From Owenia fusiformis (lineage: Eukaryota; Annelida; Polychaeta; Sabellida; Oweniidae), in contig CAIIXF020000010.1 of assembly GCA_903813345.2 (NCBI GenBank), positions 23,977,740 to 24,041,739 of the forward strand: DNA of 64,000 nt, written 5' to 3'. Numbering within the stretch: the first letter of the stretch is position 1; every line of letters begins with the position of its first letter. Both the position numbers and the translations under genes were made by a program. The notes beneath the pieces were generated by a model, which saw nothing but the letters and a program-made list of their open reading frames with translations, had not been told where the DNA came from and ran no database searches. This document shows positions 5,363 through 51,734 of this stretch, in pieces.

Positions 5363-5486
5363 CATACGGAAGCTCGAAACGTGCATCAATGAGGACACTA
5401 TGACCTGTAGGACATTGGGTGCCAACAACTTCCCCATTCTTCATTATCAGCTCACTGTCCAGTGAAAGCCATTTACCCTCTCCTTC
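5363..5486 (-). CDS. unc-13: unc-13 exon encoding the end of the C2A domain
   Basis: A 124 bp exon read on the minus strand, entered after ...TCTTTAG at 5487 and left through GTGAGTAGG at 5362. It encodes 41 residues plus one base: EGEGKWLSLDSELIMK continues to a final DARFELPY. This matches the segment that closes the C2A domain of Munc13/UNC-13 (family pattern EWLTLDS... then LLDARFELP). It begins in phase 0, exactly where the exon at 22264-22381 stops, so the two join without loss of frame. The C2A domain of long UNC-13 isoforms dimerises or binds RIM and helps synaptic-vesicle priming; it is not a calcium-binding C2 domain. The next exon (expected to start near IPEEEARYW in this family) is not in the window. 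Confidence 0.93.
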
Positions 5487-18403: not shown

Positions 18404-20437
18404 TAATAAAGGTACCACCTCTTCTATTCTTGTCCCTTTAGGTATCACCTATGTTCATTGAGCCACAACCTCTGCTTTCCCTTAATCCAATAAAGGTACC
18501 ACCTCTTCTATTCTTGTCCCTTTAGGCATCACCTATGTTCATTGAGCCACAACCTCTGCTTTCCCTTAATCCTATAAAGGTACCACCTCTACTATTCTTG
18601 TCCCTTTAGGTATCACCTATGTTCATTGAGTCACAACCTCTGCTTTCCTTTAATCCTATAAAGGTACCACCTCTTCTATTCTTGTCCCTTTAGGTATCAC
18701 CTATGTTCATTGAGTCACAACCTCTGCTTTCCCTTAATCCTATAAAGGTACCACCTCTTCTATTCTTGTCCCTTTAGGTATCACCTATGTTCATTGAGTC
18801 ACAACCTCTGCTTTCCTTTAATCCTATAAAGGTACCATCTCTTCTATTCTCGTCCCTTTAGGTATCACCTATGTTCATTGAGTCACAACCTCTGCTTTCC
18901 TTTAATCCAATAAAGGTACCACCTCTACTGTTCTTGTCCCTTTAGGTATCACCTATGTTTATTGAGCCACAACCTCTGCTTTCCCTTAATCCTATAAAGG
19001 TACCACCTCTACTATTCTTGTCCCTTTAGGTATCACCTATGTTTATTGAGCCACAACCTCTGCTTTCCCTTAATCCTATAAAGGTACCACCTCTACTATT
19101 CTTGTCCCTTTAGGTATCACCTATGTTCATTGAGTCACAACCTCTGCTTTCCTTTAATCCTATAAAGGTACCACCTCTTCTATTCTTGTCCCTTTAGGTA
19201 TCACCTATGTTCATTGAGCCACAAACTCTGCTTTCCCTTAATCCAATAAAGGTACCACCTCTACTATTCTTGTCCCTTTAGGTATCACCTATTATATGTT
19301 CATTGAGCCACAACCTCTGCTTTCCTTTAATCCTATAAAGGTACCACCTCTACTGTTCTCGTCCCTTTAGGCATCACCTATGTTCATTGAGTCACAACCT
19401 CTGCTTTCCCTTAATCCTATAAAGGTACCACCTCTTCTATTCTCGTCCCTTTAGGCATCACCTATGTTCATTGAGTCACAACCTCTGCTTTCCCTTAATC
19501 CTATAAAGGTACCACCTCTTCTATTCTTGTCCCTTTAGGTATCACCTATGTTCATTGAGTCACAACCTCTGCTTTCCCTTAATCCTATAAAGGTACCACC
19601 TCTTCTATTCTTGTCCCTTTAGGTATCACCTATGTTCATTGAGTCACAACCTCTGCTTTCCCTTAATCCTATAAAGGTACCACCTCTACTATTCTTGTCC
19701 CTTTAGGTATCACCTATGTTCATTGAGTCACAACCTCTGCTTTCCCTTAATCCTATTAAGGTACCACCTCTTCTATTCTTGTCCCTTTAGGTATCACCTA
19801 TGTTCATTGAGTCACAACCTCTGCTTTCCCTTAATCCTATAAAGGTACCACCTCTTCTATTCTTGTCCCTTTAGGTATCACCTATGTTCATTGAGTCACA
19901 ACCTCTGCTTTCCCTTAATCCTATAAAGGTACCACCTCTACTATTCTTGTCCCTTTAGGTATCACCTATGTTCATTGAGTCACAACCTCTGCTTTCCCTT
20001 AATCCTATAAAGGTACCACCTCTTCTATTCTCGTTCCTTTAGGTATCACCTATGTTTATTGAGCCACAACCTCTGCCTTCCTTTAATCCAATAAAGGTAC
20101 CACCTCTACTGTTCTTGTCCCTTTAGGTATCACCTATGTTCATTGAGCCACAACCTCTGCTTTCCCTTAATCCAATAAAGGTACCACCTTTACTATGCTC
20201 GTACCTTTAGGTATCACCTATTATATGTTCATTGAGTCACAACCTCTGCCTTCCCTTAATCCTATAAAGGTACCACCTCTTCTATTCTTGTTCCTTTAGG
20301 TATCACCTATGTTTATTGAGCCACAACCTCTGCCTTCCTTTAATCCAATAAAGGTACCACCTTTACTATGCTCGTACCTTTAGGTATCACCTATTATATG
20401 TTCATTGAGCCACAACCTCTGCTTTCCCTTAATCCTA
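18404..20437 (+). repeat. 84-bp minisatellite, about 24 units
   Basis: Units read TATAAAGGTACCACCTC, then TATTCTTGTCCCTTTAGG, then TATCACCTATG, then TTCATTGAG, then CACAACCTCTGCTTTCC and CTTAATCC. GGTACC starts at 18411, 18495 and 18579, so the period is exactly 84 bp; a few units have a 5-bp ATTAT insertion (for example near 19290 and 20220). No frame stays open through a unit on the minus (gene) strand. It is intronic and non-coding, and unit-to-unit identity is very high, so the expansion looks recent. Confidence 0.95.
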
Positions 20438-21499
20438 GATACTCTTAAATGATGAAAAATATCTGAAACTATTGAGCCAATCAGAGCATGCTATTGCCAA
20501 GCAAAGGTGATTAACGAACGTGTGTACATATTATTATGGCCTTCAGTACTGTCAATCTCTCTCATTGGTGAAATATCAAACTATAGAAAGATTGGACATT
20601 GTTAGAGGGTGGTGTGAATGTGAGAGCCACTGATTTCAAATACAGGTATCTGAAAATTAGAGAGAAAATTGCAGCTTTCATAACCATCACAATCATGAGA
20701 TATGCCTATTTTCTATATTTCTACTAAAACATATTACCCTAAATAAGTCACCCGCACAGGCCAGTGCTGTCTGGAAAATCAAGTCATAATGTTCTGCTTG
20801 GAAAAGAGAGCAAACCGAATATCATGATAGTCGATTTCTCATAAGAATGTCTAGGTGAAAACCTTGGCTTAATGGTTTCTATTTCAGCCATCTCCTGCCC
20901 AGTGATATCTTCTGACCTGTTAGAACACTTCACGATCTTTTGTTCGAATCAATTTCCTTGTCTAATTTTTAAGTAACTCCCTGACTCTTTCCCTTATGTT
21001 GAAACAATACATAATAAGAGTGAAACATGGTTCAAGCATTCATATTGGTTCAACATATTCTTTGCCAAAAATAATTTTAGTCTAGTATCTTATAAAGATG
21101 ATGATGTAGATCTTGCGCTGACATCTTATAGCATCAGGAACATGTTTCTCGAGAAAAAAGTGCCCAAAAGAGCCATCAAGGGAATGTTAATGCTAATAGC
21201 TCCATAATAAATCACCAGAAAATCAATCGGAAAAGTCAACATGACCTGAAAGTTTCATTAATAATAGATTTGGGAAAGTTTTTGTTCATTGAAGTACTGG
21301 TGACATTCTACCCTTTATCTTCTATTAAACATGTATTTCAACTTCAATCATAACAACCATCAACAGAATTTGACATTGATGTAAGGAGTCCCATGTTAGA
21401 AGTATAAAACAAGTATATACTGTGAAAAATGCACTAAATAGTTATCTATCAAAATCTCAGGATATAATAACGAGGTTTGTCAAGTTTGGTCAAATGAAA
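20438..21499. other. unc-13 intron between the two 84-bp arrays
   Basis: Unique-looking sequence with no repeat end, splice-bordered exon or RNA gene that I can support. Confidence 0.45.
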
Positions 21500-22263
21500 A
21501 GACCTACTTGATTAGACTGATGGAAACTTGTGAGTGGTAGCCAGTGAGCGCCTATAAGGTTGTAACAAAGTTCTCATAAAAATGTACCTACCTGTTTAGA
21601 ATGATGGACACTCATGAGTAGTAGCCAGTGAGTGCCTATAAGGTCGTGACAAAGTTCTCATAGAAATGGACCTACCTGTTTAGAATGATGGACACTCATG
21701 AGTAGTAGCCAATAAGTGCCTATAATGTTGTGACAAAGTTCTCATAGAAATGGACCTACCTGATTAGAATGATGGACACTCATGAGTAGTAGCCAGTGAG
21801 TGCCTATAAGGTCGTGACAAAGTTCTCATAGAAATGGACCTACCTGATTAGAATGATGGACACTCGTGAGTGATAGCCAGTGTGTGCCTATAAGGTTGTG
21901 ACAAAGTTCTCATAGAAATGGACCTACCTGATTAGAATAATTGACACTCATGAGTGGTAGCCAGTGAGTGCCTATAAGGTTGTGACAAAGTTCTCATAGA
22001 AATGGACCTACCTGTTTAGAATGATGGACACTCGTGAGTGGTAGCCAGTGAGTGCCTATAAGGTTGTGACAAAGTTCTCATAGAGATGTACCTTCCTGAT
22101 TAGAATGATGGACACTCATGAGTGGTAACCAGTGAGTGCCTATAAGGTCGTAACAAAGTTCTCATAGAAATGGACCTACCTGATGAGAATGATGGACACT
22201 TGTGAGTGGTAGCCAGTGATTGCCTATAAGGTTATGACAAAGTTCTCATAGAAATGGACCTAC
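21500..22263 (-). repeat. Nine tandem 84-bp copies of the unc-13 exon end plus its 5' splice site
   Basis: Each 84-bp unit consists of about 50 bp copied from the end of the exon at 22264-22381 and about 34 bp of the following intron. The donor dinucleotide (AC on the plus strand) recurs at 21506, 21590, 21674, 21758, 21842, 21926, 22010, 22094 and 22178, with the genuine donor at 22262: nine steps of exactly 84 bp with no indel. Most copies keep CAG/GTAGGT; the outermost has CAA. Reading on from the exon meets an in-frame TGA seven codons past the real donor in every unit I checked, so the array is not an in-frame protein extension. It lies in the intron, immediately downstream of the exon. 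Confidence 0.95.
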
Positions 22264-22381
22264 CTGATTAGAATGATGGACACTCATGAGTGGTAGCCAG
22301 TGAGTGCCTATAAGTTTGTCCCAGAGCATGCCCTTGTTCCAGAGTTCAATGATGAGTCCAGCATCAAGCCGCATGGTTTCA
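22264..22381 (-). CDS. unc-13: unc-13 exon encoding the middle of the C2A domain
   Basis: A 118 bp minus-strand exon entered after ...ATTCTTGCAG and left through GTAGGTCC. Its first base completes the Phe codon split by the previous intron. It then encodes 39 residues including LIIELWNKGMLWDKLIG and THWLPLMSVHHSNQ. These align with the C2A core of Munc13-1 (family pattern LxVEVWNKGLxWDxMxG, then WIPL). It ends in phase 0 and joins the exon at 5363-5486. The distal 50 bp of this exon, with its donor, have been copied nine times into the adjoining intron (21500-22263), so splicing has a row of competing donors to choose from. Confidence 0.95.
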
Positions 22382-27155: not shown

Positions 27156-29676
27156 CTAGAAAAACAGCAACTCCACAGAGTAGCAAATCCCACCGAACAA
27201 AACATATTTTGATTATTACAAACAGAGCTACTGTATCCCTAGGCGACGGCTTATAAAAAAATTTTATGTTTTATTTATTTATTTGGAAACTACGCTTTTA
27301 CAACAGCGGCACACAAAAATTGGTGCGTCCATTTAAGATACAGTTACATGAAGATAAAAAATGTAGTTGGTAATTCTAACTACACTTGTAGAGTTCCAGT
27401 AAGAACTTCTTAGTTCTTGTACACTATTATCAAATTTAAGTCCTGCTTCATGTCCCACAATTTTGAATGCCTCATCACCCAATAACTACTTTAGTTTTGT
27501 CGAGGAGTTTGGTATAGGTATCTAGTATGGGGTAGGGTATGATTGACTTTAAGCTCTTATGAAATTCATTTCTTTGCTCTTCATAGTGTTTGCAATAATC
27601 TATGTTCAAAAGTCTCAATATCCAAAGGACAGAAATTGCAGTGTGGATTATTAGATGAGTGGTTTTTCCATTTCTGGGTTTCATCATTTAATTGAAACCT
27701 ACCACATCTTGCGAGGAGTTTTATTCGTGCACCTTGAAATTCAAAATCATTTTCAAGGTAACGTTGGCGTCCTTTTTTTTATCAAGAAGTTGTCGGTACA
27801 GGACAGTGATGACTTTTCACTAATTTCGTCTTTAATGTAACATTCAATTTTTTGTTCAATATGCATTCTATACTTATAGGACACATCCTCAATGTCATGC
27901 CCTATCCCATTTAAATCTAATGAAGTTAAAATGTTACTCATGTTTTCAACAAATTTCCAAAAGTTTTTTACCTTTGTTGAACCTTTGTGTCATATTCGTA
28001 AGTAGAAGTTTCAAAAGAGATCCTTCATTTTGATCATTAAGGTGGAGGAAATATTCTACTTGGAGCTTCATAAGCACAAACTGGATTGTAGACTATTGGG
28101 ATCCATCCCAAATAGTTTATTACTGCAATATATGCTGGTGTGCTTTTCAAGCTGAATATTGCCCTACCTATATTATATTGCATAGACTTTAGTTTATTAT
28201 TTACATTCTGGGTATTATTTACCCAGATGCCACAACCATTAAGAACTGATGGAAGGTACTTGATCAGATATAGTTTGTTGCCATATTCAAGACGTTTAAC
28301 ATTTAGATGCTTATTCAGTGTGAATGCTACATAATTCTTTAATTTTAAAGATCTTGGACCCATTTGCTCGATGATATGAAATGTATCTTTCAATGAGCGA
28401 TGAATGAAGATGTCTAAGTACTTATAGGTTTGGACCTCAGATAATCTGAGATCGCCCAAGGCCTAGGTTTTCAATTTGTTGATTTTTTGTCCAATTACCA
28501 TTACCTTAGATTTTTTTCACTAAACTGAAATCCCCATTTACTTGCAATTTATTCGCAATCTTGAGCATGTTTTTGAGATCTTGTTCAGATTTTCCTAATA
28601 AAACAATATCATCAGCCCACATTAAACCTGGGAATTGATAGTTTTTGAAGGTGATGCCTACATTTTCCTTTAAAAGGTCATCCTGGAGATTGGTCATTAT
28701 AATAGAAAAAAGAGTCGTAAGCAAAATCCATTCACTGCTACTTGAGTTATCAAAGATTACCATGGCCATTTTAAAATTCAGCTGCCATCTTGAATATTCT
28801 TTGTCAAACAGAGTAACTGTGTCTCTAGGCATCATCATATAAAATTTGATCCAAATCCCTTCACTCATATTTGAGTTTTTTTACAAAAAATGGCTTTTTC
28901 CAAAAAATCCGTCAACTAGTATTTAAGTTATCAAAGATTACGTTTTTTTATGAAAAATGGCATCCATTTTGAAATTCAGCTGCCATCTTGAAAATACTTT
29001 CTTGAACAAATCTACTTTGTCCCTAGGCACCATCTTAAAAAAATTGAACCAAATCCGTTCTATGGTATTTGAGTTATCAAAGATTATGTTTTTTTACGAA
29101 AAATGGTCACCATTTTGATATTGAGCAGCCATTTTGAAAATCTGTTTTTCGGCTTAGCTGTTTTGTCTCTATGCATCAGCATATAAAATTTGAACCAAAT
29201 CCATCAACTCGTATTTGAGTTATCAAAGATTAAATTTTTTTATGAAAAATGGCAGCCATTTTGAAATTCAGCCGCCATCTTTTGAACTAAATCCGTTCAC
29301 TGGTATTTGAGTAATCAAAGATTACGTTTTCTACGGAAAATGGCCGCAATTTTGATATTCAGCAGCCATTTTGAAAATCTCTTCTCCATATAACTCCTTT
29401 GTCCCTAGGCATCAGCATATAAAATTTGAACCAAATCCATAAACTAGTATTTGAGTTATCAATATTTTTTACGAAAAATGTCGGCCATTTTGAATTAAGT
29501 GGTCATATTGAAAATTCCTTCTCAAGCAGAGGTTCTATCACTATAAGGCATAACCCTATAAAATCTGAATCAAATCTGTCAACCGGTGTTGAGTTATTGC
29601 CCGGACACACGAACGGACGGACAGAATGAACGGACGGACGGCTTTTCTATATCCCCCTCGAACTTGTTCGGTGGGA
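27156..29676 (-). mobile_element. Helitron-like element (family 1) split by a LINE fragment
   Basis: CTAG at 27156-27159, the hairpin GCAACTCCACAGAGTAGC and AAATCCCACCGAACAAAAC mark the 3' end. On the right CTCGAACTTGTTCGGTGGGA ends at 29676, followed by TA. Between them are about six ~145 bp units with the family's AAAATGGC/GCCATTTTG and CCTAGGCATCAGCATATAAA signatures and a GGACGGACAGA stretch near 29620. A LINE fragment at 27263-28716 interrupts a unit. This is the middle layer of a three-level nest. Confidence 0.75.
27263..28716 (-). pseudogene. 5'-truncated non-LTR retrotransposon (reverse transcriptase relic)
   Basis: In minus orientation, the frame ending at 28506 contains LFSIIMTNLQDDLL and WADDIVLLGKSEQDL, the catalytic YADD-type box of non-LTR reverse transcriptases. 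The frame at 28459-28037 gives the thumb-like segment YKYLDIFIHRSL, then LPSVLNGCGIWVNNTQ and NYLGWIPI. Near 27650-27600, another frame gives NPHCNFCPLDIETFEHRLL, a C-terminal Cys/His knuckle. Stops and frame changes separate these pieces, so it is dead. The low-coordinate end carries a (TTTA)n run, consistent with a simple-repeat 3' tail. The clade is not assigned (CR1/jockey-like in style). Confidence 0.85.
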
Positions 29677-30385: not shown

Positions 30386-31770
30386 AACATGTGCATTGTG
30401 CATATAAGCAAGTAAGAATGGGTGTATGGGCAAGAAGATAAATCATAGACTTGCATATTTTAAGTTTGATTATTAAGAAACAGTTAAGGTTAAAAGTCTG
30501 TTATGATTTATGCCCGTAATGGCTATTACATTTTTGACATTGCAGAATAAGTATTGTATGATAATGACTCTTGGAAGTAATGACATACTGTATATCACAC
30601 ACAAACACATGTTTCCATTGAAGTCAGACATAATAGGAGACCCAATACTCTATATATATATATGTATATCGATCTGCAGTGTGCAACAGTAACATAATTT
30701 CACGACAGTGACCTTTCCTTTTCTATTCTTCAGTTTAATTTAGGCTATCTTACCTCAAGTGTTTTTCCTTCTCCTATATCTACAGTAATTTTCAACCGTT
30801 GTGGTTAAGGATATGAAAAAGGTTAATGAAATTTTTGAAACCTTTTTTAAGATAGCAGTTTTAAATTATTAGATGAAACCAGGCAATATGACTTGCTATG
30901 TAGACACATTAGCTTCTATCCTAAAGATAACAAAGGAGTTGACTTAATGAAACAACACTCATTTTCTCCATTTGCACATTTGATTTTCCTATTTCTAATC
31001 AGACCATATAAGGAAATCATTTGATTATACTCCATATAAGTACGCTGATGTAAATCATTCCTGTAGAATTGAATCACATCACACATTTACAAGAGATGGC
31101 TTTGAATAATCTATTAGTACTCAAGCTCTAACCAATTCTCTCATTTCTTACAACCACTTCACTAATGTTGTTACTCAAGGGTTAGAATTGATTAAACCTG
31201 TGATTTCAATCTCCTTAATTGTATTATAGAAAACCTTACCATGAATAATTTATGTTTTGTAACTTTCACACAACTTTACCACTTATATTAATCTTCCTTT
31301 GAGTTTGGAAGTTGCCTTCAATTATCTGTCAATAAACACTTTTTAATGATATCACAGAGAAATTGCATATTATAGAGACAGCAATTGCTGCAAATACTTT
31401 TGACCTATGTATATGATGCGTTTTGAAGACTGGGTCTAGTAATCTTTTCTACAATTGACCAATATCTAGCAAGGATATGAGGTTTTTACATGTATACTGT
31501 ATAATCAGTCGTCAGAGAGTTACAAACTGATACTCTCATTTTACTATAAACCTTTCCATTACGAGAACTCATTACTTGGAGAATGATTTCTATGTTACTA
31601 TTCAAAACAGTTCATAGAATAGTCAAGAGGACAAAACTCTTCCTCAACAAATACAATAAACAAAACTGAATAACAAGATGACATTCAGATTCAAACAGAT
31701 CTAAAGAGAGATAGATCAAAGGCATTTCACTTCTGCCATGATGTAGCAGCAAAGCCCGACCTTGAAGAAC
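30386..31770. other. unc-13 intron, nothing recognised
   Basis: AT-rich sequence with a (TA) run at about 30650-30663. No exon, RNA gene or repeat end is seen. Confidence 0.45.
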
Positions 31771-32258
31771 TTTAGTAGAGAAAGAGACTTTAGTAGAGAA
31801 AAAGCCTTTAGAAGAGAGAGACTTTAGGAGAGAAAGAGCCTTTAGTAGAGAAAGAGCCTTTAGTAAAGAAAGAGACTTTAGTAGAGAAAGAGCCTTTAGT
31901 AGAGAAAGAGCCTTTAGTAGAGAAAGAGACTTTAGAAGAGAAAGAGACTTAAGTAGAGAAAGAGCCTTTAGTAGAGAAAGATTCTTTAGTAGAGAAAGAG
32001 ACTTCAGGAGAGAAAGAGACTTTAGTAGAGAAAGAGCCTTTAATAGAGAAAGAGCCTTTAGTAGAGAAAGAGACTTTAGTAGAGAAAGAGACTTTAGTAG
32101 AGAAAGAGCCTTTAGTAGAGAAAGAGCCTTTAATAGAGAAAGAGCCTTTAGTAGAGAAAGAGACTTTAGTAGAGAAAGAGCCTTTAGATGAGAAAGAGAC
32201 TTTAGTAGAGAAAGAGCATTTAGATGAGAAAGAGACTTTAGATGAGAAAGAGCCTTTA
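31771..32258. repeat. 18-bp minisatellite, about 27 units
   Basis: Units are AAAGAG(A/C)CTTTAGTAGAG with G/A and C/A variants and GATGAG versions at the right end. Because 18 is a multiple of three, four of six frames stay open through the array: (LSLLKA)n and (FSTKGS)n on the minus strand, (RDFSRE)n and (ETLVEK)n on the plus strand. The 216- and 108-codon minus-strand frames here are by-products of the repeat, not genes. Confidence 0.95.
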
Positions 32259-51478: not shown

Positions 51479-51634
51479 TGTTGATTAGTCATAGAGCAAC
51501 CTTTTTCTGGGAATAAGTGGTAAATATTCATACAACCTTTTTTCTATAAAAGGTTGCCATTTATACTTACTACTATTATTTTGAAGAGGATCTATAACTC
51601 TGCTTATTTCTAATGTAAAAAATGCTTTACTTAC

Positions 51635-51734
51635 AACATAAAATCTTGTTCCCAACTTGGAGTGTTTCCTTTAACAGCAATTGTTGTGGATTTGACATTC
51701 TGGAGCTTTAAGGTTACGTATGTGTGAAATTGAC
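51635..51734 (-). CDS. unc-13: unc-13 exon encoding the first part of the C2A domain
   Basis: A 100 bp minus-strand exon entered after ...TTTATTTCAG and left through GTAAGTAAAG. Two leading bases finish a split codon. Then come 32 residues, [20 protein letters not shown] followed by [12 protein letters not shown], and two bases of a Phe codon that the next exon (22264-22381) completes. This matches the beta-strand region of the Munc13/UNC-13 C2A domain (family pattern [21 protein letters not shown], then [10 protein letters not shown]). The start of the protein (family pattern MSLLxVxVKKAK) must be on an upstream exon at a higher coordinate; I could not find it up to 64000. The intron to the next exon is 29,253 bp. 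Confidence 0.95.

Follow-up and report, generated by a model that had tools for sequence, protein, structure and literature searches.

How does a gene cope with a stack of near-identical 5′ splice sites at the end of one of its exons? Such a stack lies in the unc-13 gene of the polychaete Owenia fusiformis, and the original prediction for it had offered three readings, namely tuning of isoform output, a U1 sink, or a harmless recent expansion. We approached the question through a 64,000-nucleotide stretch of DNA (the window; contig CAIIXF020000010.1, forward-strand positions 23,977,740–24,041,739) and through the assembly as a whole, which comprises 498 Mb in 525 contigs, with C1–C12 each measuring 32–62 Mb. 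The reading that we favor, at a probability of roughly 0.78, is that the array is a ‘mirage’, a minisatellite that sits astride the UNC-13 splice site and is spliced out together with a 16.8-kb intron at small cost.

The affected exon belongs to the UNC-13 C2A domain. A tblastn query with a Munc13-1 sequence located a 118-nt C2A exon on the minus strand of the window (22264–22381), the next C2A exon EGEGKWLSLDSELI (5367–5486, minus strand, acceptor TTTAG|GAA), and an upstream C2A exon (51634–51732, minus strand), where 5367 marks the point at which the match stops and not a mapped exon end and the coordinates of the upstream exon are match limits. The exon boundary was set by homology and splice consensus, not by transcript, and the intron that holds the array is closed by the acceptor before 5486. 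Exon 22381–22264 and the exon from 5486 translate to ETMRLDAGLIIELWNKGMLWDKLIGTHWLPLMSVHHSNQ and EGEGKWLSLDSELIM, respectively, and this pair matches UNC-13 homolog A in the PDB (2cjs, E=2.2e-28; 2cjt, E=6.6e-27), which settles the identity of the C2A exon as originally predicted; a Pfam search with the 80-aa exon pair gave no match. Moreover, matches to the MUN domain follow ~200–215 kb downstream, on the contig and strand that carry these exons (C10:23.786–23.798 Mb; 8 of 13 MUN matches in the assembly, the remaining 5 being on C5), so that the locus seems to be part of a complete gene and not a fragment.

Further along the gene, two exons occur in two versions each: the MUN-domain C-terminal exon (C10:23786657–23786869 and 23786959–23787144; L069) and a C2 exon, presumably that of C2B (C10:23806277–23806438 and 23808018–23808176; L019 and L027). 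Placed side by side, these paired versions look like mutually exclusive exons. The window also holds an array of 27 copies of an 18-bp unit (CTTTAGTAGAGAAAGAGC; 31770–32258), which leaves several reading frames open on each strand, and an ORF fragment with WADDIVLLGKSEQDLKNML on the minus strand (28506–28880), which we take to resemble a reverse transcriptase remnant.

The array at the C2A exon is far above chance expectation (TRF: 21501–22319, 84-bp period, 9.8 copies, 91% matches, 0% indels, score 1372) and can be laid out as ten 84-nt units on the minus strand (21474–22313). Copy 0 (22313–22230) consists of the last 50 nt of the open exon (22264–22313) and 34 nt of intron, much as had been anticipated from the raw sequence. 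Copies 1–8 are full-length decoy repeats of this unit; copy 9 retains the exon part and 7 nt past the donor and diverges thereafter. Mean pairwise identity is 92.7% among copies 0–8 and 88.7% across all ten, so that of the ‘nine exact 84-bp tandem copies’ first described the tandem 84-bp units stand but their exactness does not; similarly, the claimed lack of indels holds for copies 0–8 but not for copy 9, whose alignment past +7 requires gaps. Compared without gaps over the 84 positions, copies 0–8 differ among themselves at 3–10 and copy 9 from each of these at 21–26. Searching the unit and the exon peptide against the assembly, with the best-scoring candidates scored, found no match beyond the array. 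A second array of 84-bp period (24 copies, 18406–20437) lies in the same unc-13 intron; it was considered as kin and rejected, its local alignment score being reached by 52 of 500 shuffles on one strand and 174 of 500 on the other.

Nine of the ten units keep GT at the donor position, comprising the true donor and eight decoys. The authentic site, CAG|GTAGGT (22262–22263, minus strand), has a computed U1 duplex of -11.9 kcal/mol, and from it the frame continues into the exon at 5486. The series of sites, read as AC on the plus strand from 21506/21507 to 22262/22263, falls where the original prediction had put it, but the count of ten splice sites with nine decoys was one too high, as copy 2 has GA in place of GT (22094–22095, minus strand; computed U1 pairing -8.6 kcal/mol). 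The same CAG|GTAGGT is present in eight units (0, 1 and 3–8), and the computed pairing of the U1 5′ end to copies 1 and 3–8 ranges from -11.9 to -13.7 kcal/mol, so that seven of the eight GT decoys equal or beat the true donor; the weakest GT site is that of copy 9, CAA|GTAGGT (21506–21507, minus strand; -5.3 kcal/mol). Past the true donor the frame reads GTA GGT CCA TTT CTA TGA, five sense codons before the stop where seven had been counted, and every extra unit lengthens this frame by 28 codons and again contains the TGA in phase. Truncation or decay upon use of a decoy donor, as first proposed, is a direct consequence of this in-frame stop.

Among copies 0–8, 13 of the 50 exonic columns vary and 8 of the 34 intronic ones (Fisher P=1.0); at the donor (-3 to +6) the count is one column in nine (hypergeometric P=0.29). 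Decoys 1–8 differ from the real exon by 3 synonymous and 16 nonsynonymous changes, with 22% of possible changes being synonymous. Neither the donor sites nor the coding sequence of the decoys thus shows detectable constraint, at the low power that ten copies afford. Copy 0 is nearest to the majority sequence, with one difference, which fits a functional exon under constraint beside drifting decoys, and the terminal copy 9 is the most divergent unit. The first unit, in short, carries the exon end and its donor, and the rest are intron-side copies that differ from one another like unconstrained DNA.

Arrays of this kind have been described in amphioxus, where mirages, minisatellites across exon–intron boundaries, occur in Adh3, the globin genes BflGb6 and BflGb9, troponin C and PGBD5, according to the relevant passages of two reports (PMC3087553, PMC3902484). 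In the globin genes, both 5′ and 3′ boundaries are duplicated and regular splicing is described there as apparently undisturbed, although cryptic splice-site use is considered possible and could give alternative transcripts (PMC3087553); for PGBD5, Adh and troponin C, the corresponding passages likewise describe apparently normal splicing (PMC3902484). As portrayed in these excerpts, the amphioxus mirages affect 5′ or 3′ boundaries, have units of about 10–160 bp, and retain AG or GT in many copies. They share with the unc-13 array minisatellite-like copies of a real exon edge and its splice site, and the difference lies in the gene and the animal; as a contrast to amphioxus, the Owenia assembly gave no match in a search for the GFP family, a weak negative that does not establish absence. 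In Owenia, the repeat unit crosses a genuine exon–intron boundary, the exon end at 22264 falling inside copy 0, and ten 84-bp minisatellite-like units carry splice signals, with GT in 9 of 10. Furthermore, a homogenized interior ends in a diverged terminal unit (copy 9), the same pattern as that outlined for BflGb6.

We propose that the array originated through tandem duplication across the UNC-13 C2A exon–intron boundary, followed by expansion. Short direct repeats on either side of the unit may have prompted the founding event, by slippage or unequal exchange. The candidate is GACAAAC, found in the exon beyond the 5′ edge of the array (22314–22320, minus strand) and in the intron at its 3′ edge (21475–21481, minus strand), possibly the 7-bp direct repeat of the founding duplication. 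This motif is not rare in the window (GC ~34%), which has 9 occurrences versus 8.6 expected, and a gapped alignment of the copy 9 intron tail to the unit gave a score reached by 65 of 1000 shuffles, making it only suggestive that this tail is a gapped relative of the unit. As the GACAAAC birth model depends on that kinship, it is offered tentatively. During splicing, the spliceosome would mainly take the copy 0 donor, which, counted from the real acceptor, gives the shortest exon; exon definition probably picks this acceptor-proximal donor, and the whole array would leave with the intron. Occasional use of a decoy would add a multiple of 84 nt with an in-frame TGA, and because of this stop the product would be decayed or truncated and the cost small, with leakage amounting at most to a little stop-containing, decay-prone RNA.

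Is the unc-13 array exceptional in this genome? We sampled 100 domain matches, namely the best 30 of 77 C2-domain matches, the best 30 of 42 RhoGEF matches, and 40 of 144 kinase matches hand-picked in score order from open frames of <160 aa, a selection that left out neighbours, paralogues and some further rows within the frame limit. Arrays were required to have a TRF period of at least 15, exon edges and junction copies were placed by eye, with translation and splice consensus as guides, and two nominal edges were assigned per match, where a domain match need not equal a whole exon. Several matches share a gene, and the C2 set contains two UNC-13 loci (L019 and L027). Of the first 60 matches (C2 and RhoGEF), 9 have an array overlapping the domain match and 11 have one within 60 nt; among the 40 kinase matches, 7 have an array within 60 nt, 2 of these overlapping. 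As read by eye, an authentic junction is copied in 7 of the 60 and 2 of the 40. In all, 9 of the 100 matches carry such a copy, at 10 of the 200 nominal edges (5 donors and 5 acceptors).

The copied donors are found at L013 (20 bp x 12.2), L018 (85 bp x 2), L058 (54 bp x 2) and L062, where a RhoGEF exon end plus GTAAGT recurs (81 bp x 12.5; G000:C6:3165761-3169057, array 1654-2670). At L062 no stop interrupts the frame across about nine units, and use of a decoy would therefore add repeats of 27 residues rather than a stop. Acceptor arrays occur at L026 (176 bp x 2), L034 (64 bp x 7), L097 (51 bp x 4.7) and L059, the last preceding a RhoGEF exon with TTTCAG|GGG (35 bp x 21.6; G000:C10:17184950-17188147, 773-1529). 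The kinase exon L076 (G000:C5:68721-70477, 425-753 and 966-1106) is flanked on either side by a boundary array, 86 bp x 3.8 at the acceptor and 71 bp x 2 at the donor. Left uncounted were L024 (a short AT-rich repeat), L055 (junction unclear), L017 and L051 (nearby, no overlap) in the first set, and L090, L091, L094, L095 and L098 (nearby, no overlap) in the kinase set. Across the six donor arrays, including that of unc-13, unit lengths are 84, 20, 85, 54, 81 and 71; with three multiples of three versus two expected, the lengths give no reason to see the copies as serving to encode protein.

Arrays with a period of at least 15 cover 16.3% of the window and on average 6.9% of the flanks of the 100 sampled matches. 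Random placement would predict 13.8 affected edges versus the 10 observed (simulated 95% range 7–22, P(<=10)=0.20), so arrays neither clearly favor nor clearly avoid splice sites. Genome-wide, tandem triples of the perfect donor word CAGGTAAGT gave 139 matches versus 50 for the reversed control word, with 10 clusters among the 100 donor-word matches listed versus 7 among the 50 control matches; this excess is not normalized to single-word frequency, and as the donor word is expected to be common, no conclusion is drawn from it. These counts leave room for some attraction of arrays to donors.

Of the three readings first offered for the array, the harmless one is therefore supported, by the lack of detectable constraint, the commonness of comparable arrays and the amphioxus precedent, and the two regulatory ones are not. 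Harmlessness is most likely, and a regulatory role for the array may nonetheless exist.

Among the regulatory readings, a tunable donor array fares best: use of decoys would yield stop-containing mRNA, and copy number would set the dose of long, C2A-containing UNC-13 while sparing C2A-less forms. The TGA inside the unit suits this scheme, as do the seven decoys that match or exceed the true donor in computed pairing. The same pairing counts against the mirage reading: duplicated strong donors often compete, and leakage could be substantial.

A human parallel is the minisatellite of IFI6 (6-16), whose repeat units are about 12 bp long. It gives an exon several splice donors (Turri et al. 1995, cited by both PMC4526556 and PMC2572611), and two downstream repeat units are said in the passage on this gene to act as alternative donors, giving isoforms (PMC4526556). 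The unc-13 array has in common with IFI6, as outlined in those sources, a tandem repeat with multiple donor sites for one exon; unlike the isoform-making units of IFI6, the unc-13 decoys, if used, would add an in-frame stop. The donors used in IFI6 and the human boundary repeats that alter splicing are a counterpoint to a blanket verdict of harmlessness. We nevertheless consider the tunable array quite improbable, given that the decoys carry no sign of constraint (at low power), that comparable arrays adjoin unrelated exons, acceptors included, and that the amphioxus cases are reported in the accounts above as normally spliced.

Splicing within the array could, in principle, be seamless, by proto-splice-site intron gain or recursive splicing: joining a donor to the AG of a later unit would drop multiples of 84 nt and recreate the same donor, and the final mRNA could be identical no matter which donor served. 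Read from its donor, the unit starts with GT and ends with CAG|GT, and AG|GT is found at all intact-GT units except copy 9 (AA|GT). There is precedent in Rogers-type intron gain from AGGT tandem repeats, including a fission-yeast intron that covers several 24-bp repeats, as summarized in part of PMC4974935, and in human tandem repeats at exon–intron boundaries, which are stated in an excerpt of PMC2812944 to alter splicing and to be able to create novel introns. In the portrayals of intron gain by tandem duplication (the Rogers AGGT model; potato RdRp, fission yeast, human), GT and AG stand at unit boundaries, as they do here; the unc-13 repeat, in contrast, lies at the edge of an existing intron, and any new intron there would be hypothetical. 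Against seamless removal, three of the five other donor arrays (L018, L058 and L062) end in TG|GT or TT|GT, their junctions read by eye, and without AG before GT it cannot explain tolerance in general; the would-be acceptor tract, moreover, looks weak by eye (unscored). Seamless removal appears very unlikely as the explanation of the array, and at the unc-13 locus itself seamless or recursive splicing may still occur.

Least credible, and to our minds close to negligible, is a U1 platform or sink, whereby clustered donors would recruit U1 and help exon definition or guard against premature polyadenylation within the long intron. In its favor, nine GT donors crowd into 0.8 kb at the opening of the 16.8-kb intron, and for eight of these the computed U1 pairing is strong. 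Against it, donor and acceptor arrays are equally common in the sample (5 each), and a handful of sites is trivial beside the cellular U1 pool.

With the mirage as the preferred reading, the unc-13 locus is one more of the exon-boundary minisatellites that are already known, and the new element is how common boundary arrays are in this animal genome. Judged by title and abstract, the open-licence literature yielded no paper that describes exon-boundary arrays as a frequent feature throughout any animal genome outside the cephalochordates. A bolder generalization, which we regard as unlikely, holds that this genome tolerates splice-site arrays at ~5% of exon edges and shows no detectable sign of purging them, that position or exon definition does the choosing, and that AG|GT edges may erase themselves recursively. 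If it were true, each mirage would be a natural splice-competition experiment among near-identical donors or acceptors, and AG|GT unit edges, as self-erasing recursive splice points, would hold the mRNA constant. With boundary arrays at 9 of 100 sampled domain exons, the genome of Owenia offers a ready test bed for splice-site choice, in which one site must be picked out of as many as about 20 near-identical neighbours, and for asking whether new introns arise from such repeats.
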